From assembly GCA_963281255.1 (NCBI GenBank), contig OY725494.1, positions 3,547,934 through 3,611,933 on the forward strand: a DNA stretch of 64,000 nucleotides, read 5' to 3'. The DNA comes from Aphrocallistes beatrix (lineage: Eukaryota > Porifera > Hexactinellida > Sceptrulophora > Aphrocallistidae). A program made the position numbers and the translations under genes. The notes beneath the pieces are model-generated. The model did no database searches. It saw only the letters and a list, made by a program, of their open reading frames with translations, and was not told where the DNA came from. Shown piece after piece: positions 40,601-64,000 of the stretch (position 1 is its first letter; the number at the start of each line of letters is the position of its first letter).

Positions 40601-42033
40601 GAATAGAGTTTGTATTTACTTGAAGGCGTAATACGAGTGTTTGGATCTGTTTCCTTGTACCAACTGTATGTTAATGGTGCATCACTAGTGGCTTCACATT
40701 TTAATTTTACACTATCACCCCTGCACAAATCTGTATCACAGTTTGTAGTTTGAATTTCTGGCCGTACTCCCAATTCCAGCGTGTACACAATCTGCCGTTG
40801 TATTCCATTGTCTTCAATGCGACACACGATTCTAACTCCGTCTTGCCCTTCTCCTAGCGGGCCGATCCTCAGCGTGTTTGCCTTACTCAGGTTAAATATA
40901 TTGGATAGAGAAGGGTCCAGTGTTTGACTGCCATAGTACCATGTCACAATCGGTTCGGGATGCGCGTAATAAGCACATGGGAGTTCTAAGATAATACCCA
41001 CAACATAGGGCGTGTTTCCTCGTGGTTGTGCTGTCGTGAGAACCGCGTGCATGTATATACTGAAGTTTGATGAAGACGTTTCTTCCTGGTTCACCGCGCG
41101 AACCAAGTAATCGCCAGCATGCTCAACTCTTAAAGGTACAATGTCCATTCTTTTATTATTGCTTTGAAAATAGATTCCATTTCCTGCCACCATTTTGATG
41201 AGAGAGTTATCAACAATACGATACCAACTGATTACGTAGTCCGTTTGCCGACTAAGGGTTACTCTGAGTATGAGAGAGGTTCCGACTCTATGATACCTGG
41301 ATTCCGGCGCCCTCGTAATGGCTAGAGGAGCCCCCAATCTCACATCTACCGAGATGGAATGAGAACCTGCGTCATTGGATGCAACACAACGATAAATAGC
41401 TTCATCACTGCTTGAGAAATACCGATCTCTGTACTCGCTGCCTCCTCTCTGTATAATATACGACCCTTTGTACCACTGCAATGTTGCAGGCTGTGGACTC
41501 CCCCCTGTCGCCCTACAGAACATTGTGAGGGGTCTTCCTTGTCCGACGTACACCACTTGCTGGAAGTTGCTCGAGTAGTATCCTGGCTCACGCACCTCAA
41601 GGCTTGCTTCAGGTATTTCCCAGGTGACAACAGCTGGTGTAGTAGGAAGTGTAGTCGTTTCTCTCCTGTGAGTTTCTATTCTTCTATTTGTTTGGGTTTG
41701 AACAGTTTCTACAACGACAGTGAAGCTAGTAGATCCAACACCCTCACTATTCCTACCCTCACAAATGTATTCACCATTATCATCTCCATCCGCATTAGAA
41801 ATCCTGTATGTGGAGAAGTATTCAGTTCTAGGAGTTTGAATCACTCGACCATCTTTTGTCCATTTCACTGTCGGCGCTGGCGTAGAACTAAATATACATC
41901 TCAATGTCAGATCACCCCCTTGTTGTATTCTCTTGCTTCCTCCGCCATAAACCAGTGTTGGAGGTTGGAGAATATTGCCTGCATTACAATAATACAAGAA
42001 TGTAATTAAAATGACTGTGATTATAAGCTGCAT
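37690..42033 (-). CDS. Secreted protein with 15 immunoglobulin domains, intronless
   Basis: A single frame of 1,447 residues. The N-terminus MQLIITVILITFLYYCNAG is a signal peptide. I count 15 consecutive Ig domains from the Cys-Trp-(YxC) pattern, spaced about 90-95 residues. Many have the I-set signatures WYKDG or WTKDG and DxGxYxC. Domain 3 (about residues 232-330) lacks both disulfide cysteines (LILRVTLS and DYLVRA in their place). The protein ends after domain 15 (YTYVHEVRVQI) with no membrane helix or anchor signal, so it appears secreted, resembling the Ig block of hemicentins but without VWA, TSP or EGF domains. Its start faces the receptor phosphatase gene, 1.2 kb away. Biological role unknown; adhesion or recognition is an inference. 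Confidence 0.9.
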   Translation of the reverse strand: MQLIITVILITFLYYCNAGNILQPPTLVYGGGSKRIQQGGDLTLRCIFSSTPAPTVKWTKDGRVIQTPRTEYFSTYRISNADGDDNGEYICEGRNSEGVGSTSFTVVVETVQTQTNRRIETHRRETTTLPTTPAVVTWEIPEASLEVREPGYYSSNFQQVVYVGQGRPLTMFCRATGGSPQPATLQWYKGSYIIQRGGSEYRDRYFSSSDEAIYRCVASNDAGSHSISVDVRLGAPLAITRAPESRYHRVGTSLILRVTLSRQTDYVISWYRIVDNSLIKMVAGNGIYFQSNNKRMDIVPLRVEHAGDYLVRAVNQEETSSSNFSIYMHAVLTTAQPRGNTPYVVGIILELPCAYYAHPEPIVTWYYGSQTLDPSLSNIFNLSKANTLRIGPLGEGQDGVRIVCRIEDNGIQRQIVYTLELGVRPEIQTTNCDTDLCRGDSVKLKCEATSDAPLTYSWYKETDPNTRITPSSKYKLYSNGKLTIVNSSLNDVGTYICRASNKYSSDSIACRVQATPGVRIASREQRILKTVGTSARIYCLVYGALEAEITWYKDENQDIPQDVVISKQQYNGLAIHSILSFSTINKQHTGEYTCVVSSCASDLRQTHQLSVRQNIEITRTVDKFRYCSGDTVAFPCEATGFPEPTIRWYFKGERIISGESGFYVDEQNSLNIINSPSNKSGYYMCNASNPFSWRTFRFWAFFQDTPLPTFRQTEQRLPVLTEDFCLSCLPIPRVMHTYRWYKEDSDITNSTRYNLTNVWQLCITNFQPEDLGNYKCEATNCEGVGEKTFNINSYQDQETAPIISATRREYIVVEGNAVSLRCRASGHPTPSISWYYAENRISSNSHYSLEYLPYLRINNVSRGLHNGRYKCLAENRMGSVFLSISLAVYQVPRLRRITSQYAGLGVTACFDCYLLKGYPVPTVEWTKDGVTIANQERVSINQANNTLCISDVASSDQGAYRCTARNSVGWTYVGARLYVRTCGPLSFRTTLLNHTATVGDLITIQCPIEENLYQCSTRLLWRKASNGAIVTLREDDLRLIGSNLELRVNMSSRGYYQCLAYNNHGSIAQVHKLSVVSPPWEIPFISRQVFRANSEVNINCPIRGVPQPRYSWMLGNSELESRDNFIINNDRITINNAVVSNTGLYSCSGRNPYGQWEVMFEITICGEINVQLTGEDEVEERSWVAFTCSLREETVADSVEFFLGSKRLAVTSQTNRLRYSKPDPNTVELRIWATQEDSGPITCRINTTCGSSERTIRLRVTATDTSKLRVVRTQVTRPGIVFPNCHNQFTLLCPVTGKPRPVYKWYFNDSIIRFNRSPNIVSNRGRKEITVHDPDMNDAGKYRCDATNSQGRIRYTYTVNVQLPYTPSNIQRHTVFEGQTLSLDCNSTLLANREWSKNLRKYSIPNPSLSNDLIFEGVERSNEGVYLCCARSGRNVYTYVHEVRVQI

Positions 42034-43263: not shown

Positions 43264-46200
43264 ATGTATCCGAGACTACTCATACTTGTATGTTTGCTGG
43301 TGGGAACAGTATTCAATGGGCTGAGAAATGCACATGGACAATCAGCTGACAGTATTCAATCATTGACAGGTGTTACTGTTTCTTCAACAGAGAGTGCGAC
43401 ATCTACTCCCGATCATTATAGTATCTCAGAAAACATTATTTCAAGTAGCATCTATTTGTTTGATAATGCAATCATACCAACTACAAGATATTCAATTATA
43501 TCAGCAAGTGAAGAAACAAAACATTTGGTACTAAGTACAAGCATTAAATCGACGAATAAGATAAATGGAAACTCAATTCCATCAAGCTATACACCACTTG
43601 GTTCCACACCCATTCCGGTTCTTAGCAGTTCTATTGCTAACATGATTGCTCCCACTCCTCTTTCTTCAGAAGGTTCTTCTCAATTTGTTCCTCAACTTCA
43701 AAGATCTACCATCGTAGAAGTCACCTCTCCAATTGCATATTCCTCACCCATTCCGGTTCTTAGCAGTTCTCTTGCTAACATGATTGCTCCCACTCCTCTT
43801 TCTTCAGAAGGTCCTTCTCAATTTGTTCCTCAACTTCAAAGATCTACCATCGTAGAGGTCACCTCTCCAATAGCATATTTCTCACCCATTCCTGTACTTA
43901 GCAGTTCTCTTGCTAGCATGATTGCTCCCACTCCTCTTTCCTCAGAAGATCCCTCTCAATTTGTTTCTCAACTTCCAGGATCTACCATCATAGAGGTCAC
44001 CTCTCCAATAGCATATTCCTCACCCATTCCGGTTCTTAGCAGTTCTCTTGCTAGCATGATTGCTGCCACTCCTCTTTCTTCAGAAGGTCCTTCTCAATTT
44101 GTTCCTCAACTTCCAGGATCTACCATCGTAGAAGTCACCTCTCCAATTGCATATTCCTCACCCATTCCGGTTCTTAGCAGTTCTCTTGCTAGCATGATTG
44201 CTGCCACTCCTCTTTCCTCAGAAGATCCCTCTCAATTTGTTTCTCAACTTCCAGGATCTACCATCGTAGAGGTCACCTCTCCAATAGCATATTCCTCACC
44301 CATTCCGGTTCTTAGCAGTTCTCTTGCTAGCATGATTGCTCCCACTCCTCTTTCTTCAGAAGGTCCTTCTCAATTTGTTCCTCAACTTCAAAGATCTACC
44401 ATCGTAGAGGTCACCTCTCCAATTGCATATTCCTCACCCATTCCGGTTCTTAGCAGTTCTCTTGCTAACATGATTGCTCCCACTCCTCTTTCTTCAGAAG
44501 GTCCTTCTCAATTTGTTCCTCAACTTCAAAGATCTACCATCGTAGAGGTCACCTCTCCAATAGCATATTTCTCACCCATTCCTGTACTTAGCAGTTCTCT
44601 TGCTAGCATGATTGCTCCCACTCCTCTTTCCTCAGAAGATCCCTCTCAATTTGTTTCTCAACTTCCAGGATCTACCATCGTAGAGGTCACCTCTCCAATA
44701 GCATATTCCTCACCCATTCCGGTTCTTAGCAGTTCTCTTGCTAGCATGATTGCTCCCACTCCTCTTTCTTCAGAAGGTCCTTCTCAATTTGTTCCTCAAC
44801 TTCAAAGATCTACCATCGTAGAGGTCACCTCTCCAATTGCATATTCCTCACCCATTCCGGTTCTTAGCAGTTCTCTTGCTAACATGATTGCTCCCACTCC
44901 TCTTTCTTCAGAAGGTCCTTCTCAATTTGTTCCTCAACTTCAAAGATCTACCATCGTAGAGGTCACCTCTCCAATAGCATATTTCTCACCCATTCCTGTA
45001 CTTAGCAGTTCTCTTGCTAGCATGATTGCTCCCACTCCTCTTTCCTCAGAAGATCCCTCTCAATTTGTTTCTCAACTTCCAGGATCTACCATCGTAGAGG
45101 TCACCTCTCCAATTGCATATTCCTCACCCATTCCGGTTCTTAGCAGTTCTCTTGCTAGCATGATTGCTCCCACTCCTCTTTCTTCAGAAGGTCCTTCTCA
45201 ATTTGTTCCTCAACTTCAAAGATCTACCATCGTAGAGGTCACCTCTCCAATTGCATATTCCTCACCCATTCCGGTTCTTAGCAGTTCTCTTGCTAACATG
45301 ATTGCTCCCACTCCTCTTTCTTCAGAAGGTCCTTCTCAATTTGTTCCTCAACTTCAAAGATCTACCATCGTAGAGGTCACCTCTCCAATAGCATATTTCT
45401 CACCCATTCCTGTACTTAGCAGTTCTCTTGCTAGCATGATTGCTCCCACTCCTCTTTCCTCAGAAGATCCCTCTCAATTTGTTTCTCAACTTCCAGGATC
45501 TACCATCGTAGAGGTCACCTCTCCAATTGCATATTCCTCACCCATTCCGGTTCTTAGCAGTTCTCTTGCTAGCATGATTGCTGCCACTCCTCTTTCCTCA
45601 GAAGATCCCTCTCAATTTGTTTCTCAACTTCCAGGATCTACCATCGTAGAGGTCACCTCTCCAATAGCATATTCCTCACCCATTCCGGTTCTTAGCAGTT
45701 CTCTTGCTAGCATGATTGCTCCCACTCCTCTTTCTTCAGAAGGTCCTTCTCAATTTGTTCCTCAACTTCAAAGATCTACCATCGTAGAGGTCACCTCTCC
45801 AATTGCATATTCCTCACCCATTCCGGTTCTTAGCAGTTCTCTTGCTAACATGATTGCTCCCACTCCTCTTTCTTCAGAAGGTCCTTCTCAATTTGTTCCT
45901 CAACTTCCAGGATCTACCATCGTAGAAGTCACCTCTCCAATTGCATATTCCTCACCCATTCCGGTTCTTAGCAGTTCTCTTGCTAGCATGATTGCTGCCA
46001 CTCCTCTTTCTTCAGAAGGTCCTTCTCAATTTGTTCCTCAACTTCCAGGATCTACCATCGTAGAAGTCACCTCTCCAATTGCATATTCCTCACCCATTCC
46101 GGTTCTTAGCAGTTCTCTTGCTAGCATGATTGCTGCCACTCCTCTTTCCTCAGAAGATCCCTCTCAATTTGTTTCTCAACTTCCAGGATCTACCATCGTA

Positions 46201-49200
46201 GAGGTCACCTCTCCAATAGCATATTCCTCACCCATTCCGGTTCTTAGCAGTTCTCTTGCTAGCATGATTGCTCCCACTCCTCTTTCTTCAGAAGGTCCTT
46301 CTCAATTTGTTCCTCAACTTCAAAGATCTACCATCGTAGAGGTCACCTCTCCAATAGCATATTTCTCACCCATTCCTGTACTTAGCAGTTCTCTTGCTAG
46401 CATGATTGCTCCCACTCCTCTTTCCTCAGAAGATCCCTCTCAATTTGTTTCTCAACTTCCAGGATCTACCATCGTAGAAGTCACCTCTCCAATTGCATAT
46501 TCCTCACCCATTCCGGTTCTTAGCAGTTCTCTTGCTAGCATGATTGCTGCCACTCCTCTTTCTTCAGAAGGTCCTTCTCAATTTGTTCCTCAACTTCAAA
46601 GATCTACCATCGTAGAAGTCACCTCTCCAATTGCATATTCCTCACCCATTCCGGTTCTTAGCAGTTCTCTTGCTAGCATGATTGCTGCCACTCCTCTTTC
46701 TTCAGAAGGTCCTTCTCAATTTGTTCCTCAACTTCAAAGATCTACCATCGTAGAAGTCACCTCTCCAATTGCATATTCCTCACCCATTCCGGTTCTTAGC
46801 AGTTCTCTTGCTAGCATGATTGCTCCCACTCCTCTTTCTTCAGAAGGTCCATCTCAATTTGTTCCTCAACTTCAAAGATCTACCATCGTAGAGGTCACCT
46901 CTCCAATTGCATATTCCTCATCCATTCCGGTTCTTAGCAGTTCTATTGCTAACATGATTGCTCCCACTCCTCTTTCTTCAGAAGGTCCTTCTCAATTTGT
47001 TCCTCAACTTCAAAGATCTACCATCGTAGAAGTCACCTCTCCAATTGCATATTCCTCACCCATTCCGGTTCTTAGCAGTTCTCTTGCTAGCATGATTGCT
47101 CCCACTCCTCTTTCTTCAGAAGGTCCTTCTCAATTTGTTCCTCAACTTCAAAGATCTACCATCGTAGAAGTCACCTCTCCAATTGCATATTCCTCACCCA
47201 TTCCGGTTCTTAGCAGTTCTCTTGCTAGCATGATTGCTGCCACTCCTCTTTCTTCAGAAGGTCCTTCTCAATTTGTTCCTCAACTTCCAGGATCTACCAT
47301 CGTAGAAGTCACCTCTCCAATTGCATATTCCTCACCCATTCCGGTTCTTAGCAGTTCTCTTGCTAGCATGATTGCTGCCACTCCTCTTTCTTCAGAAGGT
47401 CCTTCTCAATTTGTTCCTCAACTTCCAGGATCTACCATCGTAGAAGTCACCTCTCCAATTGCATATTCCTCACCCATTCCGGTTCTTAGCAGTTCTCTTG
47501 CTAGCATGATTGCTGCCACTCCTCTTTCTTCAGAAGGTCCTTCTCAATTTGTTCCTCAACTTCAAAGATCTACCATCGTAGAGGTCACCTCTCCAATTGC
47601 ATATTCCTCACCCATTCCGGTTCTTAGCAGTTCTCTTGCTAGCATGATTGCTGCCACTCCTCTTTCTTCAGAAGGTCCTTCTCAATTTGTTCCTCAACTT
47701 CAAAGATCTACCATCGTAGAGGTCACCTCTCCAATAGCATATTTCTCACCCATTCCGGTTCTTAGCAGTTCTCTTGCTAGCATGATTGCTCCCACTCCTC
47801 TTTCTTCAGAAGATCCCTCTCAATTTGTTCCTCAACTTCCAGGATCTACCATCGTAGAAGTCACCTCTCCAATTGCATATTCCTCACCCATTCCGGTTCT
47901 TAGCAGTTCTCTTGCTAGCATGATTGCTGCCACTCCTCTTTCTTCAGAAGGTCCTTCTCAATTTGTTCCTCAACTTCAAAGATCTACCATCGTAGAAGTC
48001 ACCTCTCCAATTGCATATTCCTCACCCATTCCGGTTCTTAGCAGTTCTCTTGCTAGCATGATTGCTGCCACTCCTCTTTCTTCAGAAGGTCCTTCTCAAT
48101 TTGTTTCTCAACTTCCAGGATCTACCATCGTAGAGGTCACCTCTCCAATTGCATATTCCTCACCCATTCCGGTTCTTAGCAGTTCTCTTGCTAGCATGAT
48201 TGCTGCCACTCCTCTTTCTTCAGAAGGTCCTTCTCAATTTGTTCCTCAACTTCAAAGATCTACCATCGTAGAGGTCACCTCTCCAATTGCATATTCCTCA
48301 CCCATTCCGGTTCTTAGCAGTTCTCTTGCTAGCATGATTGCTCCCACTCCTCTTTCTTCAGAAGGTCCATCTCAATTTGTTCCTCAACTTCAAAGATCTA
48401 CCATCGTAGAGGTCACCTCTCCAATAGCATATTTCTCACCCATTCCGGTTCTTAGCAGTTCATTTGCTAACATGATTGCTCCCACTCCTCTTTCTTCAGA
48501 AGGTCCTTCTCAATTTGTTCCTCAACTTCCAGGATCTACCATCGTAGAAGTCACCTCTCCAATTGCATATTCCTCACCCATTCTGGTTCTTAGCAGTTCT
48601 CTTGCTAACATGATTGCTCCCACTCCTCTTTCTTCAGAAGGTCCTTCTCAATTTGTTCCTCAACTTCCAGGATCTACCATCGTAGAAGTCACCTCTCCAA
48701 TTGCATATTCCTCACCCATTCCGGTTCTTAGCAGTTCTATTGCTAACATGATTGCTCCCACTCCTCTTTCTTCAGAAGGTCCTTCTCAATTTGTTCCTCA
48801 ACTTCAAAGATCTACCATCGTAGAAGTCACCTCTCCAATAGCATATTCCTCACCCATTCCTGTACTTAACAGTTCTCCTGCTAGCATGATTGCTCCCACT
48901 CCTCTTTCCTCAGAAGATCCCTCTCAATTTGTTTCTCAACTTCCAGGATCTACCATCGTAGAAGTCACCTCTCCAATTGCATATTCCTCACCCATTCCGG
49001 TTCTTAGCAGTTCTATTGCTAACATGATTGCTCCCACTCCTCTTTCTTCGGAAGATCCCTCTCAATTTGTTCCTCAACTTCCAGGATCTACCATCGTAGA
49101 GGTCACTTCTCCAATTGCATATTCCTCACCCATTCCTGTTGTTACCATGATTGCTCCGACTTCTGTTTTTTCCCAGGATTTCTCTGAGTCTGTTTCTCAA

Positions 49201-52200
49201 TTTCCTGTTTTCATCAGTTCCCTTTACAATATGGTTGCTCCTACATCTGTTTCGTCTGAAGATTATCCTCTGTTTGCTTCTCCATTTCAGAGTTCAACCT
49301 TTTCTGATTTAACATCTTCAATACAGTACTCCATCCCTCCCTCTTCTTCTTCTTTAATTCTATTCCCCACCCCCGCTTCTCTCGATCTTATCATTATAAT
49401 TTCAATTTCTCCTCTGCTTGTATTCCCGGGAGATACAATAAATTTAGTGTGTTACTCTAGTTTCCCAAGTTTAATTTTCCAATGGATCGATCCCATTTCT
49501 AATTCTACTCTCTCCACTGAGGCTACATTTTCATACATACTGCCTACTGATAGTCTTTCTCCGCGCTATTTTCAATGTCAAGTATTTGATAGCTCTAATC
49601 TTGATCAGCCTCTTGCTTTCAACACTAGTTTTATTAATATTGCTTTCGTTGACAGTCTTAATCTGAGTCTGATCAAGACACAGGATATAAATAATGTTGA
49701 TGAGATTACTATTGAATGTCTCGCTTCTTCTACTGTATCACTCTCCCCTTCCATAGCCTGGTATTTCACATCAACGAATAGTAGGACCAAGATAGAACCT
49801 TCTACTGCAGGCTACATACTGTCAAGTACCAAATTGACTATCATAGCTACAGATCCCATTAGATCGGGAGAGTACGAGTGTAGTGCTAGTCTGAACAACG
49901 TGACCTCCACAGTTCGGAGAATGTCCATTCTTATTCAAGTATACTCCCCTCCTACCGTCTCGATAGAAATGGCTTCTGATCGAGATGTGTTCTCTCCACT
50001 GGAGCGTTCCATGTTTCAGGTTAACTGCACCATATGTGGACTAGAGACGCCAACTTTTCGCTGGCTAGTCAACGGCAATCCGATCAACCTTAACAATGTT
50101 TCTTTAGACACATTGATCAATGAACCAAGTGAGTTTATTTGTACAGTGGATGTTAGTTATATAAACGTTCTGGTTATGGCCCTATCTTAGGTCATAATAA
50201 CGGATTGTTCTACATATACAGTTAACTCCGCTTAATAGGGTCATATTTACAACCGTGTGAAATTCTAATCAGCTTATTTTTTTAAATTACATATTTCTTC
50301 ATTCAGCTCTCGACTCGCACAACATCTCTACAACTCTGTCTCGTATCGAATCCTATGTCAGATTCTCAAGTGTGGGGTTAGACTTGAAGTCCGTGAGGTG
50401 TACTGCTACTAACTCACTGGGAACTGATTCTGTGGAGGCTGAGGTACGAGTTGAGAGGCTAGGGAGACCTTGTGCACCCGTCCAGCTGAGAGAGATCGGA
50501 TCTGAGTCTTTGAGCTTGTTGGAGTGGAGAGTGAACACGGACTGTGCCGAGAAGTTTCAATTTGCATCTAGTTACATATTTGAAGTGACTGCTTCTAGCG
50601 GCGAGAGGAGTGAAGTGGAGTACATTGTTGGAGAGGAGGAGATTGGAGATAAGATGTTTAGTTTCTATCTTACTGGACTAACACCTAACACTGGTTACCA
50701 GGTTATTTGCTATTGCCGCATATGAAACGGAATCATTTTGGGAAGGGGAGGATTTTTAAAACTATCTTATTTCTTAATTATGCTTTCAATGGTTAATTTT
50801 ATAATGATGGCGCAATCGAGTGAAATGTAAACATGCTGATAAAGCAGACATTAATAAAATCGTTTAACAGACCGATTATGCAGCTACAGTAAGTGACTAG
50901 ATGAATGCGAAATGTGATTATCTTAATACATCGAAAATAATTATATTAGAGACTTTCTGAAATTTGAAATCTACAGCCTGGATGAGATCTCGGTTTAACG
51001 ACGAATTTGCCATAAATTTGACCGGATTTTTCATACATATATAACAGGTACACTTGTATTCCCTACGATATTGAACATATATACATTTATCAGCTGAGCG
51101 AGTCACACAGCACAACCAATCTAAACAGTTGGTTAATTAGTATTGAATGTTTAGATTCGTGTGTCAGGAGTGAATGTGCACGGAACTTCCAAGTACAGTG
51201 GTCGTATCACAGTGGTGACAGCACCAGTAGGAAAGAAAGTGATGTTCTACTACGGAGCTGAGAATGGAGACAGTGAGATGGAACACAATTATGGGGCTCA
51301 GTCTCCAGCTCTCCATCTTGCTACTACTATCCCAGTGGGGGCTGCTAGAGTGGATTCAGTGTTTGTGACACCTTTTGGTACCATTTCCCTTGACAGGAGG
51401 AGCTATTCTTGGTCCCCTCAAGCATTTCCTGGCAGCTATACAAGTTGTGAGTTACTAGTGTTTGCATTTGAAATAGCGCTATGGAATGTTTTTAGGAACA
51501 TAATGTTTTATCGAATAATTGAACATTATACTCGTGTATATATATTCAGTCGACTTCGCTTAATAGGGTCACTGGTTAATTGAGTTAACCGCTTAATCGG
51601 ACCAATTTTGGCAGGACCTGAGTAGCTCTTACACATAGAAGCTAATACAAAATATTTTCGGTTGATAGGGTTCTGCGCTTAATCGGGGCAAAATGTCCTC
51701 TGACCGATGTGACCCTATTAAGCGGATTCGACTGTACTACCATATGCATACATATAACAAAGTTGCATGCAGAGATAATTATATGATAATATTTATAAGT
51801 TTCTAGATTTTGCATGGAAATAGGTATTTTAAAAATTACATGCAAATCGTGCATTTAAGTATGTTTAGAGAGATTAGTTAATGTGACTTGTTTATCAGCT
51901 CTCTTCATTTTGGCTCCTTTCTGGTCGGACGTTGACTACTCCGAAGAAGGTCACATCTCGTACAGAGTGTACCAGTCAGGGTCTGACGTGGTTGAGAACA
52001 GAGTGGTAGCAGAAGCCACAGAACTGTCTCAGGCGCAGGCTGGAGCCCCTCTCAACTTCACAGCACAGGCAGTGATAGTAGCCACCTGGTCAGAAGTGGT
52101 CCCATACCAGAGTTTGTATGTAGGCACAAATACATTCCAGGCAGCGCTTGTGACAGACTATGAGCAGACATATGTTCTGTTCGGCTACAACTGTGGAGAG

Positions 52201-55200
52201 ATGTCTTGGTCCTCTAGTACTCTCTACCCCACTAAACCTGTGATAGGATTAAATGCAGGAGGAGTGTTGTTTTTCAATCATAGACTCTCAAAGATGACTC
52301 GCTCTCATCAAATTGGTTGTCTATATTGTAAGTTTCGTTTATTCATTTACGGTAAAACTGTTTACAAACAACTGTTATGAATCGCCTTAAAAATTGTTTC
52401 GAAATTTGACTGATATTATGGCAATTTCGATCAGTAGAATGATAGAGTGGCATCAATTCGTTTTAAAAAAAGTATCGGTCTGTTTACCGACATTTATTAT
52501 TAGTTGTGTTGCAAGTAATGCACGCGCTTTTTTGTATGCAAGATTTTGAGTCATATGTTCATCTAACATTAATCATTGTGGATTTGTGTCTATTATTTTC
52601 CTCCTCTAGCTGATAGTACGATAGTGGGATATAAGGTGTCTTTAGACCTACCCTCAGATGACACACCAGAATCCGCCTGTATAAAATGGTTTCTACAAGA
52701 CCAGCTGATTAACCCAGACATCCTTTCATCACCCGCTTCTCCCTGTCCCTGTAACCTACAACAAGCGATATTTGATGCTCAGTTTCGATTTGATTTCGTC
52801 TTCTTTCTAACCAACACGTTTTCAACCGATGTCCTCTGTTTTGTGTCAAGATTCCCTAATTCTGGAGTTTATCAAAGGTTGGGATTAGGTTTTACCCATA
52901 TCGCGTATTGAAACTATTTCTAACTTCACATCTTTGAGGATACTTGGATTCAAACGAAGTAGAACTTTGCTTATGGCAATTTACTTTTCATGTCCAAAAT
53001 TAGGAATATGTAAAATTATTATATTTAGAGAGATAAAGCATATTATTGGTGAAGTTGCCTCATAGTATAGCACCATTTATTCAATAAATGGTGCCTCATC
53101 TAATCGTTCCTACGTTGCTATGGGAATGTAATATCTTGATTTGGGGATCTTCTAATTTTAAACTGTACTTATCAGTAAAATCTACCAAACATCGGAAATA
53201 CCGAAACGCTAAAGCGATATGAGAATAATTAGTCAGCATCATATCTCATAAACGAGTGAATTATAGAAATATTCTCTAGATGTTGCTTCGGATCAAACTC
53301 AGGCTTCTTTTTCTTCTTTTCCAATACTCCTCTGCTTACTTCTGGGAATGAGAGGGGATCTCTCCTCTCCACCACTCCACGCTTCTACCCTGACTCCTTG
53401 TACCAGAGGTACAGAGAACAGGATGAAGAGGGGTACACCCAGTGCTGTCTCCTCTCAGACAGCTGTCATCTCTACTTCAGGAGGAGACCTAGTGATGATT
53501 GCGCTGGCTACGTGTTTATCCCGTTTACGTGGGCATTTGGAGACCCACATGTCATTACCATAGATGGACTCAAGTACACTTTCAACGGAGTTGGTATGTA
53601 CTACGCATTACAAAAGCTTCCAAAATATCGTACTTGTATTGATCCTACATTCCATCCTAGGAGAATACTGGTACCTATTTCCAGTTGGAGATTGTGACTA
53701 TCAAGTGCAAACGCGAACTGAACTTTTCAGAGACACAAATGCGACTGCATTCACTGCGGTAGCGGTTACAATCAACAACTGTTCTAACGTGTTCGTATCT
53801 CTCCTCGGTGAAGATGGACTCTCTCTCTTTGTTGACAATATCAACCGGACAGAGGAGGCGAGATCTCTTGGAGAACTGATTGTAGGCGATTGTCTTGAAA
53901 TAGAGTATATGAAGGCTAACGGCACACAGGTAGATTGGGTATTTTTAATCAAACTTGTATAAGAGATGCCCTTATATAATGGAAAGTGTGTTTCGTGTGA
54001 GATCTAGCAATCCGATGTTTATCAAATGTATATGCGTTTGGTATGTCGGATCCCTTTCACGTGTAGTTGTGAATTGCGAACTTAATATATTCGCAAAAAA
54101 TAATTCTCAATCCCAATGTTCCCAATCTTGTCCCAATCTTGTCTCAATCCTCAAACATCTTTTACAGTATCCCTAGTCCAAAATCCGCAAGCTACTGTTG
54201 GCCATACTATAGTACAGGGCTGTCCAACTATATTTACTTCGGGCCGCAACTGCTTCATACTATTTAGTGGCGGGCCGCAATACAGGGGCGTGCACTCGGG
54301 ATGGGTATGGATAGAGGCATTTTGGAGAGATTGAAGCAGGCAACGCGGGCCGCCTGTTGGACAGCGCTGCTATAGTAGACCATGATATTATATTAAATCT
54401 CTTATATTAAAAAGTAACTCGACACGAAGTGTCAACAAGCCTCGTAGCCCAAGCAAGCCAAGCTTGCTTGTTTTTTAAGATTTCATTTAAATTAGCTGAT
54501 TTTCTAAAAGATTTACCATATATACTGTAATACGTATATTACTGTTATATAATTGTCAATAAATAGAAAACTCAAGTCAAAGCAGCATATAATAACGGCG
54601 CTTCCCTGAATGTGCAATCAGACGGAGACTTGATCACCATGAACCTCACTGTCCCAGAAGCCTGCAAATTAAGCACTCAAGGGTTGTTAGGTCAGTGGGA
54701 TGATAACACAAACAATGACTTTCTGATGAGAAATGGCACTCTTCTGTCTCCTAACGTGACTGACAGGATAAAGGAGGAATTTGCAGAATCTTGGAGGATA
54801 ACTCTCGAAGAGAGTCTAATGAATTATATGACAAGGGATTATAACCAGTACAAGTGAGTATCATGATAATATATAATCTTATTATTAAAACGCTACCTAT
54901 AATTGTTTGTTTGTTTGTCCGAATTAATTGAAGAACTGGCAAATTGTAGAGCTATTAAAATTGGCATGTAGTTGTCAAATGGTGACAAATCTGTCTCTGA
55001 GTATAACTCCGTTGTTCATGTCCGTCTCACTAATGGCCAGACAATGCCAGTACACATCACTCCATTCAGGATGATATCTTGCGGGCCGCGGCTATATAAA
55101 TCTGGCAATGGCTGCGTGAAAATAATTGCCACCCCGATAAAATTTACTCCAATGAATAAAGTATCAACCTTTGCCACCATAGGTAATTAGGTAAATCACC

Positions 55201-58200
55201 ATCATGCATACAATGGTTAAATTTGGCCTACGTGGCACAAAGTTTTTGATAATTTGAAGACGTTGAGAAAGAACTATTGATTATAAATATTCTGTTAGGA
55301 TTAATTCGAATGTGTTTCGAATCTAAAGCCCGATTAGTTGTATCCCTGACGTTTAGAAGTATTCCCCTTCATGAATAGACCCATTTTACTACTACGTATT
55401 TGTATGTGAAATAATGAAGTGTTCAAATGTTTTTGTCTGGGTAGTGTATATTTGAATATAATTGTACTATATACGGTATACGCAGACCGTCCATGTCATT
55501 AGTGTATCCTCTATTGCGAAGTGTGTTTCTGGATTCAGTTAAATTCAATATTTCTCGTTGAAGTTTATGAACAAATAGATGATCAATTATCTTAATATAT
55601 CCGTGTTAACTATATCTTGTTCTTTTAGTCAAATTTACACAGCTACTATTTTCTTGGACGAAATGATTGCCAATATTTCCATGGAAATAAAAGAGTTGTG
55701 TATGGACGAAGTGAGCTGTCTCTTCGACGCATTTGTAACCAACGACACATCCATAGCCACAGCATCTCTTTCCATAACAACGGAGTCTCAGGCCTCTGTC
55801 CAGATAGCCAGCAACATGCCTCCTCTCATCCTAGCTCCTCCCTTGCTCAATCTGACTCTGAACAACCTGATCACTTACCAGTTCAATGTGACAGATGAAG
55901 ACGACTTCTCTGTCTCTCACTTGCTCTTCCCTCTGCTCTCTTTCCAACAAGTCGCACTCTCCAACTCGTCACTCACACAATTCAGTCTCCAACTGAGTCT
56001 GATGGACATTCCTGAGTCATTAAATGTGACAATAATCGCGAATGACTCTCTCGGCGTCAGTATTAGGAGTGTGACAGTGGTTGTCTGTCACTGTGAGAAT
56101 GGAGGCTACTGCACCCCTGACGTACCAGCTGTAGGAGTGAGTGGCTTCAGTAGATCTTCTTGTCAGTGTCCTCTCTCGTATGAAGGTCTCTATTGCTCCT
56201 CTCCTGTCACTGACATGTGTCTGCAGTCTGCTTGTCTCACTGAAGCCTGTCCAGCTGGAACGATTGAGAACACAAACACAGCCAAGTGTGAAGGTAAATT
56301 CTTTATTGTTAGGACTTAGAGGCTCTCAATTTGTCCTGTAACTATTTTATTGGTCAATATGTGAATATGACCACATTTTTCAGTGAATGTCATACAACAT
56401 GAATATTATTAAGACCGAAATTGATGGGATTTCGAGAAAATGCCATAGTCGTGCAGGTAATGCAGAAATGGTTCGACTTTTCGAAAAAGGAAATAGACTT
56501 TTTATCATTATGATTAATGGTGGTTTTTATGTGAACTATTTCCTTTTTTGGAAAGTCGAACTATTTCCGGGTTTTTTTGCGAACTCTTTCCACCATACCG
56601 TCGTACAAATCCACACCATAAAAGAATCTTACATGCGAAATTTGGTAAAAGTCGGACTATTAGATTTCGGAAGTTCTCGCGTATGCACATCAGCACATAC
56701 ATAAATATTGAAGAGTACTCCGTTCATGCCATAAAGGCATCTCCCTATAGAAGCTGCACTAAAATTGATTTTCTTTAGACATTGACGAGTGCACCACTAA
56801 TTGTAAGCAGCTGCATCAGGTGTGCAGCAACACCTACGGGAGCTACCTGTGCTCCTGTGAGGCCGGATACCAGATGGAGGATGGAGAGTGCGTAGACTCT
56901 GATGAGTGTTCTCATCCCATCTCTCCTTGCCAGCACCTGTGTACCAACACTCAGGGTAGGAATTGAATCCACACGATGAGTTGTTGACACACTTGTTTAC
57001 TGTTGACTGTTAGGGTCCTTCACGTGTGAATGCAATCAGAACTATCAGCTACAACCAGACCAGTCCTCGTGCAGGGGAATAGATAGTGGTTCCTGTCCTA
57101 ACGGAATGGAGCCTCCTTACCAATGTGAAAATAACACGTGCACACTTCAAGGGACGGAATTAGTGTGTCAGTATTGTCCTAGAGGCACAGAGCTGAGCAG
57201 TAACGGGAGAAGATGCGAGGATGTAGATGAGTGTGTGTTGCAATCTGATATCTGTCCTCCTGATAGCTCTCTCTGTAGGAATGTGTATGGGTCTTTCAAC
57301 TGTCTCTGTTTCAAAGGATACGATAATGTTCAGGTTGGAACATAACTAAATACTCCTATCAGCTTAGCGAGTCTTTGATGTCAACTTCTTAACACTAGAC
57401 CTTGCTAATTGGAACACGGTTAAGACAGTATATCTGAAACTACGTATACCTGTTCCCAATAATTAGTTTGTCAACGGAAACAACGGACGTTGACAATTTG
57501 TTATACACGCCATAATACATACATGACAGCTTGGGGCATTTAATATCCTCTATATATTATAGAGATAAATTTATCGATAAATTTATTGATAAATTTATCA
57601 ATAAATTTATGCATAATTTACTTTTGTTTACAATAGGTACATAAAGTAATTTTTGAATCCATTTATCATGGACCTAATTTTTCTTCTACAGTTCTGAATT
57701 CATGATTCATCTTAGATGAATGACTTTTGTTCCCTAGTAGAGAATTGGAAAGCAATCAACCGTTTCTCTGATATCTCCAGGCGCCCACAGTGGCCGCAAG
57801 CCGCGCAGCGCAGCGCAAGCAAGCGAAGCGTGCTTGTATATATGTAAAATAATATTTTATGTGAAATGATCACTTTATTTACTGAGCAGGACACGTGTGT
57901 GGATGTGGATGAGTGCTTCAGTATTACCCCCGTGTGTGGTGCTGGTGAGTCTTGCTTTAACACACCAGGAAGTTATGTGTGTGCTTCCTTCTGCTATCTC
58001 CCAAACAACTTCCTCACTCCCGATGGACAATGCAGAGGTAACCTGCATTTCTTAGAGAGATTGTTTAATTTTTAATCTCTATCTCTTCTTCGAAGTTGTG
58101 GAGAGTGACGTGTCAAGAATTCCAGAGAACACAGAACGACTTATCATTGCATTCAGTCTGAGTTTCTCTGAATTATCAGAATCGCTGACAGTTCGATCTC

Positions 58201-60418
58201 TTTCTCTGTCCACCCTCTACTCAGCTCTCAACTCCACTCTCCGAACGCCGAGAGAAGACATCCTGTTCATAGAGCTGCAGACTTCTGAGGGTGCATTCCA
58301 GCTACTCGCGATATCTGACAGTTTCCAAGTAGACCCATCTCTTGTGACTGGACTCTTAAGGACGGATTTTGCACCTGAATGGGCTCCATATTATTCCTAT
58401 GTCACCAACACATCTGTAGATAGTAAGCTATTAATATTTTTATAATGAACTTACGTACATATGAGAAATGATCTATCAATTGATATTAATATGTTTCACC
58501 GTAATTAACTTATTTAGTTATATCTGCACCTGTATCCGTATCGGCGCTCTCAACAACAACACTGATCATAGCTGCTGTATGTGCTGGTACTTTTCTGGTG
58601 ATTCTTTTATTCGCGATCTCTTGGTTCTGGGCTTTTTATATTCCTAAACTGAGACTTGACGGAAAGGATGAAGATGACTCTATCAATGAAGAATTACTGA
58701 ACGAATTGTTAGTGAAGATTTATTCTAAATTCATAGATAGCTATAAGTACTAATGCATACAATCAGCGTCGCTTTTATCAGCTCCTAGGATCGATTGTTC
58801 TAATAAGATAGTGCTAGTTCTGTAGATGGATGTTAAGCCGGTTCAAGTGAAGTGATCCTGAGTGCAGTCTAATTATTTCAACTGTTAGTAAGGGGTTTCG
58901 ATTTTCGAATCTGTAGATTACGAAAATGTTTTTTCGATTCCCTATGAGAAATAATCTGTTTTGTTCACGATATATAATTGAGTCGACATTGTTAATCGAA
59001 ATGCAGGGCATTCATTTTATATCAATATTACAGAAATTAATATTTCGAATCAATTTATTTTCTAAGTTAATACAACCACTCACTGCTCTACGATGAATTG
59101 TCCTTTAATCAAATAGTGAATTGATTAGAATCAGCGCATTCATTATTGATTGTCGATGTAGGATTGTAATGAATTTTTTATTCTCAGAAACAAATTAAAA
59201 AGCAAAAGAATCCAAGCTCGCCTAACAAGCAGAACGAGTGGCCACTTGCCTAAATGGCCTAAAGGGATTGTGAAATCTAGTTCCCTAATTCCATCATTTC
59301 TCTCTTATCTACTTGCTGAAGATCCTCCCCTCGTATTATTTGACGAGTTTGACAGCATACCAATGCACTATGCGACAGGTGCGATCCTCTTCATTACACA
59401 TTGTTCATTTTGACTTTAATATGTGTTGTAATATCTCCCTTTTCACTCCTAGTTGAGGATATTCCTCCTGGCTGTGAACAGAAGAATCGTTTCAACAATA
59501 TCCTACCCCCTCCTCACTCCCGGGTACCTCTCTTCCTCAAGTACGGACTCCCCAACTCGGACTATATCAACGCTAACTTCGTTCGCGGTTACGATATGAA
59601 GCCGAGAGTGTACATTGCGACTCAGGCTCCTCTCTTCGAAACAGAGCAGGATTTCTGGAGGATGGTTTGGTTAGGAATACTAATAAGTAGACCCCATTTA
59701 ACATACTACTATATCAGGAACAGAATAGTGCCGACTGTTCCATAAATTTAATTTTTTAAAATAAATTATCGGTCGATTGGATTTTCTATTGATTACGCTC
59801 TATACTAGGGAACAGAATACAGAAGTGATTATATTGTTAACAGAAATGGTGGAGAGAGGGCAGAAAAGGTGCATTCCATACTGGCCTGATAAGGATGTTT
59901 TAAATTTAATTCGATCTGGCGATATTGAAATTATTTCGAAGCAGAAAATTACAAGAGAGCACTATCAGATTGACGAGTTTATATTGCATCATGTTAATGT
60001 GAGTATTTGGAGTATTGTATTATACCTTATTTCTGGTAATCTGATTGTGTTAATATGATATTCATAGTTCAATGAAGTACATGAGGTGTCTCACTACTGG
60101 TACAGGAAGTGGCCAGAGTACGGAGTGCCCTGTGATCCCAGCCCACTCGTGAGCATGCTGATAGAGAGCCGCGCGAAACCTCGCAACAGCAGCCATCCTG
60201 TGGTGGTGCACTGTGCCTCTGGCACCGGTAGGACGGGAGTGGCGCTGGGGGTGGACATAGGAATGCAAGAGCTGGATGAGACTCGGTCAGTGGACATTCT
60301 ACGGAATGTGTGTTTGATGAGACAGGACAGAGGTGGTTTGGTCCAGACCCAGGACCAGTACCACTTCCTCCACAAGTGTGTCTGTGTATATGCGAGATAC
60401 ATAGACAGCCACCAGTAG
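43264..60418 (+). CDS. Receptor-type tyrosine phosphatase with mucin/MUC4-like ectodomain
   Basis: Eighteen exons, all joins phase-consistent, give about 3,964 residues: 43264-50128, 50307-50701, 51155-51446, 51899-52327, 52610-52877, 53280-53593, 53661-53929, 54567-54853, 55629-56293, 56779-56955, 57014-57333, 57890-58037, 58096-58422, 58518-58707, 59188-59378, 59453-59669, 59809-59998, 60068-60418. Order: signal peptide; forty 46-residue Ser/Thr/Pro repeats (115-1954); three Ig-like domains (about 2044-2330); FN3 (about 2340-2435); NIDO (APFWSDVD, about 2480-2640); AMOP (about 2670-2830); VWD ([11 protein letters not shown], about 2835-3020); a MUC4-like linker; EGF plus four calcium-binding EGF (DIDEC, SDEC, DVDEC, about 3194-3475); SEA-like segment; transmembrane helix (about 3598-3626); one PTP domain (about 3690-3950). 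PTP motifs: [35 protein letters not shown] (Cys about 3897) and VQTQDQY. The WPD loop reads WPEYGVP. Least certain joins are exons 7-8 and the 50702 donor. Confidence 0.85.
43606..49125 (+). repeat. Forty tandem 138-bp coding repeats (mucin-like)
   Basis: The unit encodes [20 protein letters not shown] then [20 protein letters not shown] and SPIAYS, 46 residues. I count 40 units, all in frame and without stops. Variation is confined to a few positions: LAN/LAS/IAN, APT/AAT, SEG/SED, VPQLQR/VPQLPG/VSQLPG and AYS/AYF. Units 6-8, 9-11 and 12-14 form the same three-unit higher-order repeat (414 bp). Beyond 49126 the pattern decays into related S/T/P-rich sequence before the first Ig domain. Confidence 0.97.
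50219..50252. repeat. Solo pogo/Tigger-like terminus in intron 1
   Basis: CAGTTAACTCCGCTTAATAG at 50219 resembles the inverted terminus of the element at 51547 (CAGTCGACTTCGCTTAATAG). No partner end is seen. Confidence 0.5.
51547..51734. mobile_element. Pogo/Tigger-like MITE in receptor intron 3
   Basis: Inverted termini CAGTCGACTTCGCTTAATAG and CAGTCGAATCCGCTTAATAG enclose 188 bp. The homologous intron of the downstream paralogue (62854-63115) aligns on both sides but lacks the element, so it marks an empty site. The clean TA duplication expected for pogo elements is only partly visible (TT on the left, TA on the right). Confidence 0.85.
54215..54369. mobile_element. hAT-type MITE, 155 bp, 8-bp target duplication CTATAGTA
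   Basis: Lies in receptor intron 7 (53930-54566). The left end is CAGGGCTGTCCAAC; the right end on the other strand is CAGCGCTGTCCAAC. Both are followed by GGGCCGC-type sequence. Bases 54207-54214 and 54370-54377 are both CTATAGTA. No open frame. Confidence 0.93.
57781..57840. repeat. Dispersed GC-rich repeat with GCAAGCAAGCGAAGC core
   Basis: A GC-rich block in an AT-rich receptor intron. Its reverse complement closely resembles 18956-18990, and a looser relative occurs at about 54440-54472. The self-complementary CAAGC/GCTTG motifs can pair. Family unknown. Confidence 0.6.
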
Positions 60419-61319: not shown

Positions 61320-64000
61320 ATGTCTTTCACCAAACGAGTATTCTTTCATCTAATCCAATTGTTTGGACTCGCACTGTTAATTCTGAATAGTCCACAAGGG
61401 CAGTCTGCAGGTACTCCAATGAACACTACACATAACCACAGTGTGAATGTGTTCTTGACAAGGAAGCAAGATAGCAACAATCTTGATGAAATTGAGATAG
61501 AGTGCTCCGCTAATTATTCAGGAACAATAGTGCCCTCCATATCCTGGTATTTCACATCAACGAATAGTAGGACCAAGATAGAACCTTCTACTGCAGGCTA
61601 CATACTGTCAAGTACCAAATTGACTATCATAGCTACAGATCCCATTAGATCGGGAGAGTACGAGTGTAGTGCTAGTCTGAACAACGTGACCTCCACAGTT
61701 AGGAGAATGTCCATTCTTATTCAAGTATACTCCCCTCCTACCGTCTCGATAGAAATGGCTTCTGAACGAGATGTGTTCTCTCCACCGGAGGGTTCTATAT
61801 TTCAGGTTAGCTGTAACATCAGTGGACTAGAGACGCCAACATTTCGCTGGCTAGTCAACGGCAATCCTTCTAATAACACCGATGCCACGGTACACAGTGT
61901 TATCACTAGACCGAGTGAGTTATATTTAACTTAAATGGTAGGTGGTCAATAAATATATTAAAAAACAAAAAATTCAAAAATGATTGATAAAACCTTTCCG
62001 CTATTATTACCCAAATTAAGATTAAGGCTTGAAATATGAGTTTACCAAAGTATTTGATAGCTCTCGACTCGCACAACATCTCTACAACTCTGTCTCGTAT
62101 CGAATCCTATGTCAGATTCTCAAGTGTGGGGTTAGACTTGAAGTCCGTGAGGTGTACTGCTACTAACTCACTGGGAACTGATTCCGTGGAGGCTGAGGTA
62201 CGAGTAGAGAGGCTAGGGAGACCTTGTGCACCCGTCCAGCTGAGAGAGATCGGATCTGAGTCTTTGAGCTTGTTGGAGTGGAGAGTGAACACGGACTGTG
62301 CCGAGAAGTTTCAATTCGCATCTAGTTACATATTTGAGGTGACTGCTTCTAGCGGTGAGAGGACTGAGGTGGAGTACATTGTTGGAGAGGAGGAGATTGG
62401 AGATAAGATGTTTAGTTTCTATCTTACTGGACTAACACCTAACACTGGTTACCAGGTAATGCAATTTTTAAAAAATACCTATTTTAAAAGCATTAAATTC
62501 TATTAATATATAAGTATCACATGTCACAAAGCTCTTTTAAAAAAACAATCGTAATTAGATTCGTGTTTCAGGAAAGAACATTTTCGGAACTTCCAAGTAC
62601 AGTGGTCGTATCACAGTGGTGACAGCACCAGTAGGAAAGAAAGTGATGTTCTACTACGGAGCTGAGAATGGAGACAGTGAGATGGAGCACAATTATTGGG
62701 CTCAGTCTCCACCTCTCCATCTTGCTACTACTATCCCAGTGGGGGCTGCTAGATTGTTTTCAGTGTTTGTGACACCTTTTGGTACCCTTACTCTTGACAG
62801 GAGGAGCTATTCTTGGTACCCTCAAGCATTTCCAGGCAGATACTATACAAGTTGTGAGTTAGTGCTTGCAATTTAATTAAATAAACGAAATGGAATGTTT
62901 CTAGGTGTATAATGTTTTATCGAATAATTGAAAATTATATACGTATATACCACATGCGTACGTATAACAAAGTTGCATGCAGAATTATATGATAAGATTT
63001 ACTAATATATACCACATTTTGCATGGAAGTAGGTATTTAGAAAATTACATGCAATAAAACGAATCGTGCATTTAAGTATGTTTAGAGAGATTAGTTAAAG
63101 TGACTTGTTTATCAGCTCTCTTCATCTTGGCTCCTTTCTGGTCGGACGTTGACTACTCCGAAGAAGGTCACATCTCGTACAGAGTGTACCAGTCAGGGTC
63201 TGACGTGGTTGAGAACAGAGTGGTAGCAGAAGCCACAGAACTGTCTCAGGCGCAGGCTGGAGCCCCTCTCAACTTCACAGCACAGGCAGTGATAGTAGCC
63301 ACCTGGTCAGAAGTAGTCCCATGGGGATACCGGCGTGTGCATGTAGGCACAAATACATTTCAGGCAGCGCTTGTGACAGACTTTGAGCAGACATATGCTC
63401 TGTTCGGTTACAACTGTGGAGAGATGTCTTGGTCCTCTAGTGCTACCTACCCCACTAAACCTGTGATAGGATTCAATGCAGGAGGAGTGTTCTATTCTAA
63501 CCATTTCCTTTCAAAAAATGATTTTTCTCATCGGATTGGTTGTCAGACAGAAAATTGTGAGTTTTACTGTCAAATCCCTCGAAACATAAAGCAATTTTAT
63601 TTAATTCCCTTTGCCCAATGAGATGTCCTCATGTCAATGAAATTTGTATGCCCGTATTTGTATATAACATTTCCTCCTCTAGCTGATAGTACGATAGTGG
63701 GATATAAGGTGTCTTTAGACCTACCCTCAGATGACACACCAGAATCCGCCTGTATAAAATGGTTTCTACAAGACCATCTGATTAACCCAGACATCCTTTC
63801 ATCGCCCGCTTCTCCCTGTCCCTGTAACCTACGACAAGCGATATTTGATTCTCAGTTCCGATTCGATTTCGTCTCCTTTCTAACCAACACGTTTTCAACC
63901 GATGTCCTCTGTTTTGTATCAAGATTCCCTAATTCTGGAGTTTATCAAAGGTTGGGATTAAGCAAATAATGAGAGGTGTATCCTAGCATATTAGAATGAA
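61320..64000 (+). CDS. Tandem paralogue of the MUC4-like receptor, lacking the mucin array (5' part)
   Basis: Exons 61320-61914, 62061-62455, 62559-62853, 63116-63556 and 63683-63950 have the same phases as exons 1-5 of the upstream receptor; the gene then runs off the right edge. A signal peptide (MSFTKRVFFHLIQLFGLALL) is followed within about 15 residues by the second Ig domain of the longer paralogue, so the mucin repeats and first Ig domain are absent. FN3, NIDO and the start of AMOP follow. Exon 2 differs from the upstream exon 2 at only about 8 of 395 bases. Whether this copy also carries VWD, EGF, a membrane span and a phosphatase domain cannot be seen here. It could be a receptor phosphatase, a decoy receptor or a secreted form. 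Confidence 0.85.

Follow-up and report, generated by a model that had tools for sequence, protein, structure and literature searches.

A predicted receptor-type tyrosine phosphatase with a MUC4/SUSD2-type ectodomain in glass sponges

Gene structure and domains of copy A

The window analysed here is a stretch of 64,000 nucleotides from the glass sponge Aphrocallistes beatrix (C8:3547934-3611933 of a 100.5-Mb, 28-contig genome). On its forward strand lies a gene, copy A, for which we built by hand a predicted model of 18 exons (window 43264-60418), set by GT-AG introns and matching phases (Table 1). The model encodes 3963 aa with zero internal stops. A first-pass annotation of this DNA had proposed one phase-consistent exon chain, and the parts are found where it placed them. 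From the N-terminus, the predicted protein has a hydrophobic leader, 40 repeats of 46 aa, two Ig-like domains, FN3, NIDO, an AMOP-like region, VWD, a MUC4-type C8-3, EGF_CA domains, a transmembrane (TM) helix and a single protein tyrosine phosphatase (PTP) domain.

Table 1. Predicted exons of copy A and the part of copy B that lies in the window (window coordinates)
Feature	Position	Strand	Content
Exon 1	43264..50128	+	Hydrophobic leader (probable signal peptide), repeat array 43602-49144, first Ig-like, start of second Ig-like
Exon 2	50307..50701	+	Remainder of second Ig-like domain, most of FN3
Exon 3	51155..51443	+	FN3 end, NIDO start; acceptor common to copy B
Exon 4	51899..52327	+	NIDO core
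Exon 5	52610..52877	+	AMOP-like part 1 (E 4.7e-4, below cut-off, plus alignment)
Exon 6	53280..53593	+	AMOP-like part 2, VWD start (GDPHVIT); start set by copy C and Oopsacas P0001 (QRCCY)
Exon 7	53661..53929	+	VWD
Exon 8	54567..54853	+	VWD end (GLLGQW)
Exon 9	55629..56293	+	MUC4-type C8-3, linker, cysteine-rich EGF-like part
Exon 10	56779..56955	+	EGF_CA type
Exon 11	57014..57333	+	EGF_CA type
Exon 12	57890..58037	+	EGF_CA type
Exon 13	58096..58422	+	Membrane-proximal extracellular domain, at SEA position, without SEA match
Exon 14	58518..58707	+	Transmembrane helix, start of cytoplasmic part
Exon 15	59188..59378	+	Cytoplasmic juxtamembrane segment
Exon 16	59453..59669	+	PTP domain part 1
Exon 17	59809..59998	+	PTP domain part 2
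Exon 18	60068..60418	+	PTP domain part 3, stop codon
Copy B exons 1-5	61320..63950	+	Leader, Ig-like, FN3, NIDO, AMOP start; without repeat array

Some candidate boundaries were rejected. An open stretch at 54972-55190, between exons 8 and 9, was dropped because exons 8 and 9 already join in phase when it is skipped; it has no match in its frame in copies B and C (described below), and short other-frame matches at 54928-55002 in copy C resemble a dispersed repeat. Acceptors at 51168 (exon 3) and 54583 (exon 8) were dismissed on phase, and those at 53346 and then 53355 (exon 6) by comparison with copy C and a protein of the glass sponge Oopsacas minuta. The divergent neighbour of the copy A gene is an intron-free 1446-aa frame with nine I-set stretches (window 37696-42033, minus strand). 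Further PTP matches lie just upstream of the window (C8:3537744-3539584, minus strand).

The part of copy A after the repeats was scanned against Pfam. The PTP domain matches positions 3-232 of the 234 in PF00102 (E 8.9e-67), and matches were also obtained for NIDO (E 1.2e-23), EGF_CA (E 1.7e-23, four stretches), VWD (E 6.8e-10, 39.9 bits against a cut-off of 22.9), fn3 (E 6.6e-07) and C8-3_MUC4 (E 4.9e-06, 26.2 bits against a cut-off of 25). For the Ig part, I-set scores 23.7 bits, which is at its cut-off, and Ig_3 falls short with 23.8 bits against 30. AMOP falls under the 25-bit cut-off in all three copies (20.7 bits in A, E 4.7e-4, appearing only with the corrected exon 6; 21.8 bits in B; 22.4 bits in C), and Oopsacas P0001 has no Pfam match to it; the AMOP-like region is backed by its position and by common cysteines (CPC, QRCCY, CC). 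Thus, among the domains named in the first-pass annotation, NIDO, VWD and PTP were recovered by profile searches and AMOP was seen below threshold. SEA, which it had also named, was not detected, with no Pfam match at E<=1 in copy A, copy C or Oopsacas P0001. As a further check for SEA, AlphaFold was run on exon 13 alone and gave a poor model (pLDDT 41).

A TM helix is predicted by hydropathy in copies A, B and C, and the one in exon 14 of copy A has the highest hydropathy of that protein (2.59). Hydropathy also predicts a hydrophobic N-terminus in copies A and B. The array in exon 1 comprises 40.2 copies of 138 bp with 95% matches (TRF). These repeats had been described as mucin-like. The array itself is confirmed in copy A, but its composition is 30% Ser+Thr and 15% Pro, and the usual mucin threshold is near 40% Ser+Thr. 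The array is also absent from the gene models of copies B and C, the latter with a short Ser/Thr/Pro-rich stretch only.

Copies B and C in the same genome

A NIDO search of the genome gave five matches, and the best three are all on the plus strand of C8, at copies A, B and C. Each is followed on the same strand by PTP matches; measured from where the NIDO match starts, these begin at a distance of 7.6 kb in A, 5.6 kb in B and 7.1 kb in C. Both B and C keep the NIDO-to-PTP chain. The PTP search of the genome returned at least 155 matches (150 of 168 candidates scored); among the matches listed, none is near the two remaining NIDO matches, which are on C12. Large clusters of PTP matches were seen at C15:65915-276551 and C2:51758-86825; the frames are long and intron-free, and many hold two domains. 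A separate region, C15:518424-538475 (minus strand), is one open frame of 7538 aa in which AMOP matches five times and C8-3_MUC4 ten times; it is a putative giant gene of repeated MUC4-type domains, with no PTP match among the matches listed.

Copy B is in tandem to copy A. Its exons 6-18, including those for the TM helix and the PTP domain, continue past the window end, and its model is stop-free over 1885 aa with the same 17 junction phases as A. Copy C, at approximately C8:3900442-3910835 and about 300 kb away, has 19 exons and a stop-free frame of 2032 aa. Eight successive ectodomain junctions are common to C and A, as are five more between the TM exon and the last of the PTP exons they share, and C has two extra introns, one in the Ig part and one in the P-loop. 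Pfam finds Ig, fn3, NIDO, VWA and PTP in copy C, with VWD (15.5 bits) and C8-3 (22.9 bits), like AMOP, below cut-off. The VWA domain sits where A and B have EGFs, which suggests an exchange, within the family, of the ectodomain segment next to the membrane. In copy C the TM exon is followed by an intron of 91 bp, with little space for a second promoter. Both copies were modelled by hand with A as the guide, and thus their phases agree with A partly because of how the models were made, which does not apply to the stop-free frames and the motifs.

Comparison of copy A with its tandem copy supports the exon borders of A through the contrast between exon and intron identity. Exons 2-13, 16 and 18 are 92-100% identical between A and B, and exons 1 (last 600 bp), 14, 15 and 17 are 63-82% identical, whereas 13 of the 17 introns are at 44-61%. 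The other four introns are at 78-100%: the one after exon 3 is at 78%, and three short ones are at 98-100%. The dN/dS ratios are 0.0254/0.0564 for exons 2-13, 0.329/1.217 for exons 14-15 and 0.0379/0.154 for exons 16-18, and for exons 14, 15 and 17 a dS of 0.8-1.5 indicates an old divergence between A and B. This pattern would be best explained if A and B were old duplicates homogenised by gene conversion in exon islands, with exons 14, 15 and 17 (TM and juxtamembrane parts included) having been spared.

A relative in Oopsacas minuta and the origin of the fusion

A public predicted protein of the glass sponge Oopsacas minuta (P0001, 1478 aa, 54% identity over the whole alignment) carries the same NIDO-to-PTP chain. 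Like copy A, it has NIDO, an AMOP-like region (by alignment), VWD, C8-3_MUC4 (33.4 bits), EGF_CA, a TM helix (at 1113) and PTP (at 1223) in one order. The P0001 model begins inside NIDO, and its comparison with A, B and C runs from NIDO onward. The protein is called 'Mucin-like protein', a name that reflects the ectodomain only, and the fusion is unremarked in the public database.

The NIDO-to-C8-3 part of copy B, searched against 5.8 billion proteins, gave 16 matches, one of which has a PTP domain; this is P0001, at 56% identity, and the next match by E-value is at 29%. With a profile built on P0001, B and C there were 154 matches. Among the best 120 of 154, NIDO and PTP occur together in P0001 alone, P0035 and P0049 have PTP without NIDO, and the best named sponge relative listed, Halichondria panicea P0018, has NIDO, VWD, C8-3 and EGF without PTP. 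The PTP part of copy B gave 709 matches, with P0001 first (72%) and the sole carrier of NIDO among the best 120 of 709. These searches took proteins 0.55 to 1.75 times the query length, and glass sponge proteomes are possibly few in the database. The first-pass annotation had held that the fusion belongs to no described family. We found no account of a NIDO/VWD receptor phosphatase in the open-access journal literature covered, and neither 'phosphatase' nor 'mucin' occurs in the main text of the genome paper on Oopsacas or of that on Aphrocallistes. However, as P0001 makes clear, the architecture was already present in a public proteome.

Phylogenetic trees of the two halves of the protein agree. 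In a 29-row PTP tree, which took PTP loci of the same genome from one strand, A, B, C and the Oopsacas protein form one clade (100/100). A 34-row PTP tree with all eight loci from both strands recovers this clade (100/99), with C outside (Oopsacas,(A,B)), and a 20-row ectodomain tree gives it at 100/100 with the same inner order. The topology (C,(Oopsacas,(A,B))) is common to all three trees, each of which used a chosen subset and carries long-branch warnings. Since the ectodomain and PTP trees share one history, they indicate a single fusion, older than the split from Oopsacas minuta, that was followed by duplication into C and A-types before that split. Three loci and a protein of a second species make chance a very unlikely origin for the arrangement, and the fusion is very probably real.

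The fused clade falls among first (D1) PTP domains (95/96, 34-row tree). Among single-domain PDB entries, scores near the top were those of PTPRR (197 bits), PTPN5 (195 bits) and PTPN7 (193 bits), whereas a protein search of the PTP part pointed to LAR-type and related receptors. We do not assign the family to a human PTP subgroup, because in the trees the family sits on a long stem among D1 domains without a supported sister.

Catalytic motifs, alternative readings and known receptors

The PTP domains of the family differ in their catalytic motifs. Copy C has KNRY, WPDYGIP and HCSSGAGRTG and is probably an active phosphatase. Copies A, B and the Oopsacas protein have KNRF, WPEYGVP and an altered P-loop, and this branch is more probably a slow or phosphotyrosine-holding PTP. 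The Cys and Arg of CX5R and the QT..QY motif are kept in all four. The WPE motif looks secondary, since the PTP domain groups with D1 domains, and the change is old, being common to Oopsacas. The first-pass annotation had expected this protein to signal by removing phosphotyrosine. The PTP domain is there as predicted, but with the Asp of WPD replaced by Glu and the P-loop altered, the activity of the A-type proteins is uncertain.

We conclude, with a probability of about 0.83 that includes the mechanism proposed here, that copy A is one gene for a single-pass receptor-type PTP with a MUC4/SUSD2-type ectodomain, and that it belongs to a small family derived from one fusion before the Oopsacas split. 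We infer that an A-type protein would be at the cell surface, where its NIDO-AMOP-VWD-EGF stalk could attach to matrix or to adjacent surfaces. The repeats of copy A would hold the stalk far out, a long spacer found in A only among the three copies. Binding or clustering could then alter how readily the single cytoplasmic PTP domain reaches phosphotyrosine proteins. The locus may conceivably also yield a secreted form, or a cytosolic PTP initiated at an in-frame Met near the end of exon 15.

The locus could be misread in several ways. Two adjacent genes might have been taken for one, with exons 1-14 encoding a MUC4-like membrane protein and exons 15-18 a separate PTP: intron 14 is 480 bp, reading on from exon 14 meets a stop 46 bases later, and the in-frame Met in exon 15 is a possible start of a short PTP. 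We consider this improbable, because B and C have the same order and junction phase, the corresponding intron of C is so short, P0001 is predicted as one protein, and ectodomain and PTP give one tree shape. The claim of the first-pass annotation that this is one receptor-PTP gene with a MUC4/SUSD2-type ectodomain is upheld by the three loci, the Oopsacas protein and the concordant trees. That an assembly artefact joined unrelated exons is hardly credible, given that the arrangement recurs at three loci, in two places some 300 kb apart, and in a protein of another species. The gene could also encode a mucin-type matrix protein that is secreted or shed and whose PTP tail is incidental and non-functional, in line with the large NIDO relatives of Halichondria and molluscs that lack PTP (among the best 120 of 154). 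This is very improbable: the PTP exons of A and B have diverged under constraint (dN/dS about 0.25), identity to Oopsacas is 72% for the PTP part against 54% for the whole alignment, and there is a TM helix in A, B, C and Oopsacas.

Harder to dismiss is the proposal that the PTP of A, B and Oopsacas is a pseudophosphatase, which would bind phosphotyrosine proteins and recruit or shield them without hydrolysis. This is a special case of the receptor reading and not exclusive of it, and we give it somewhat less than an even chance. The WPE motif and altered P-loop, set against WPD in copy C, speak for it, as does the occurrence of WPE in five of the seven second-domain (d2) rows from database receptors in the 34-row tree (the other two, from corals, have WPD). 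Nevertheless, CX5R Cys and Arg, QT..QY and KNR are kept, the family sits with D1 and not D2 domains (95/96), and turnover results are given for the WPE domain in a paper on PTPN21, which has a WPE loop (PMC10901363).

A receptor-type PTP of this kind would carry an ectodomain type new to the class; the one public relative that we found had gone unremarked. Known surface proteins with a MUC4-type ectodomain are adhesive or protective, and among the relatives listed they carry no phosphatase. The fusion would be a natural case in which NIDO-AMOP-VWD sensing could be read as a change in phosphotyrosine, and it would widen the range of receptor PTP ectodomains in an early branch of the animals. 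Because the paralogues differ in having WPD or WPE, loss or retuning of catalysis can be tested directly. We speculate, while holding the full scenario to be unlikely, that glass sponges evolved a class of receptor PTP of their own, whose adhesive MUC4-type stalk reports contact across largely syncytial tissue. A WPE branch that holds phosphotyrosine proteins might have descended from an active, C-like ancestor. In A and B, gene conversion might preserve the likeness of the ectodomain and of most catalytic exons, leaving the TM and juxtamembrane exons free to differ, so that one input could lead to two outputs.

Each part of copy A has counterparts in known proteins. The NIDO-AMOP-VWD-C8-3 block is that of the MUC4/SUSD2/mesh family, several members of which also have EGF domains. 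The cytoplasmic tail of MUC4 is short and not known to be catalytic; copy A has a PTP domain in its place, and Ig and FN3 domains in front. In MUC4, the NIDO, AMOP and VWD domains reportedly act jointly in cancer-cell signalling (PMC5354666). Receptor PTPs (R1-R8), like copy A, combine Ig/FN3 ectodomains, a TM helix and a cytoplasmic PTP. The ectodomain types described for them in PMC10815196 are Ig/FN3, MAM, FN3, short disordered, carbonic anhydrase-like and SEA, with no NIDO/AMOP/VWD type among those described, and copy A differs from them in having that ectodomain and in its single PTP domain. R3 receptors, FN3-type PTPs with a single domain, have been traced to sponges (PMC5336234). PTPN21 shares the WPE loop with copy A but is a FERM protein without an ectodomain (PMC10901363). 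Five of the seven D2 rows from database receptors share that loop as well, whereas the PTP of copy A groups with D1 domains and has no D1 preceding it.
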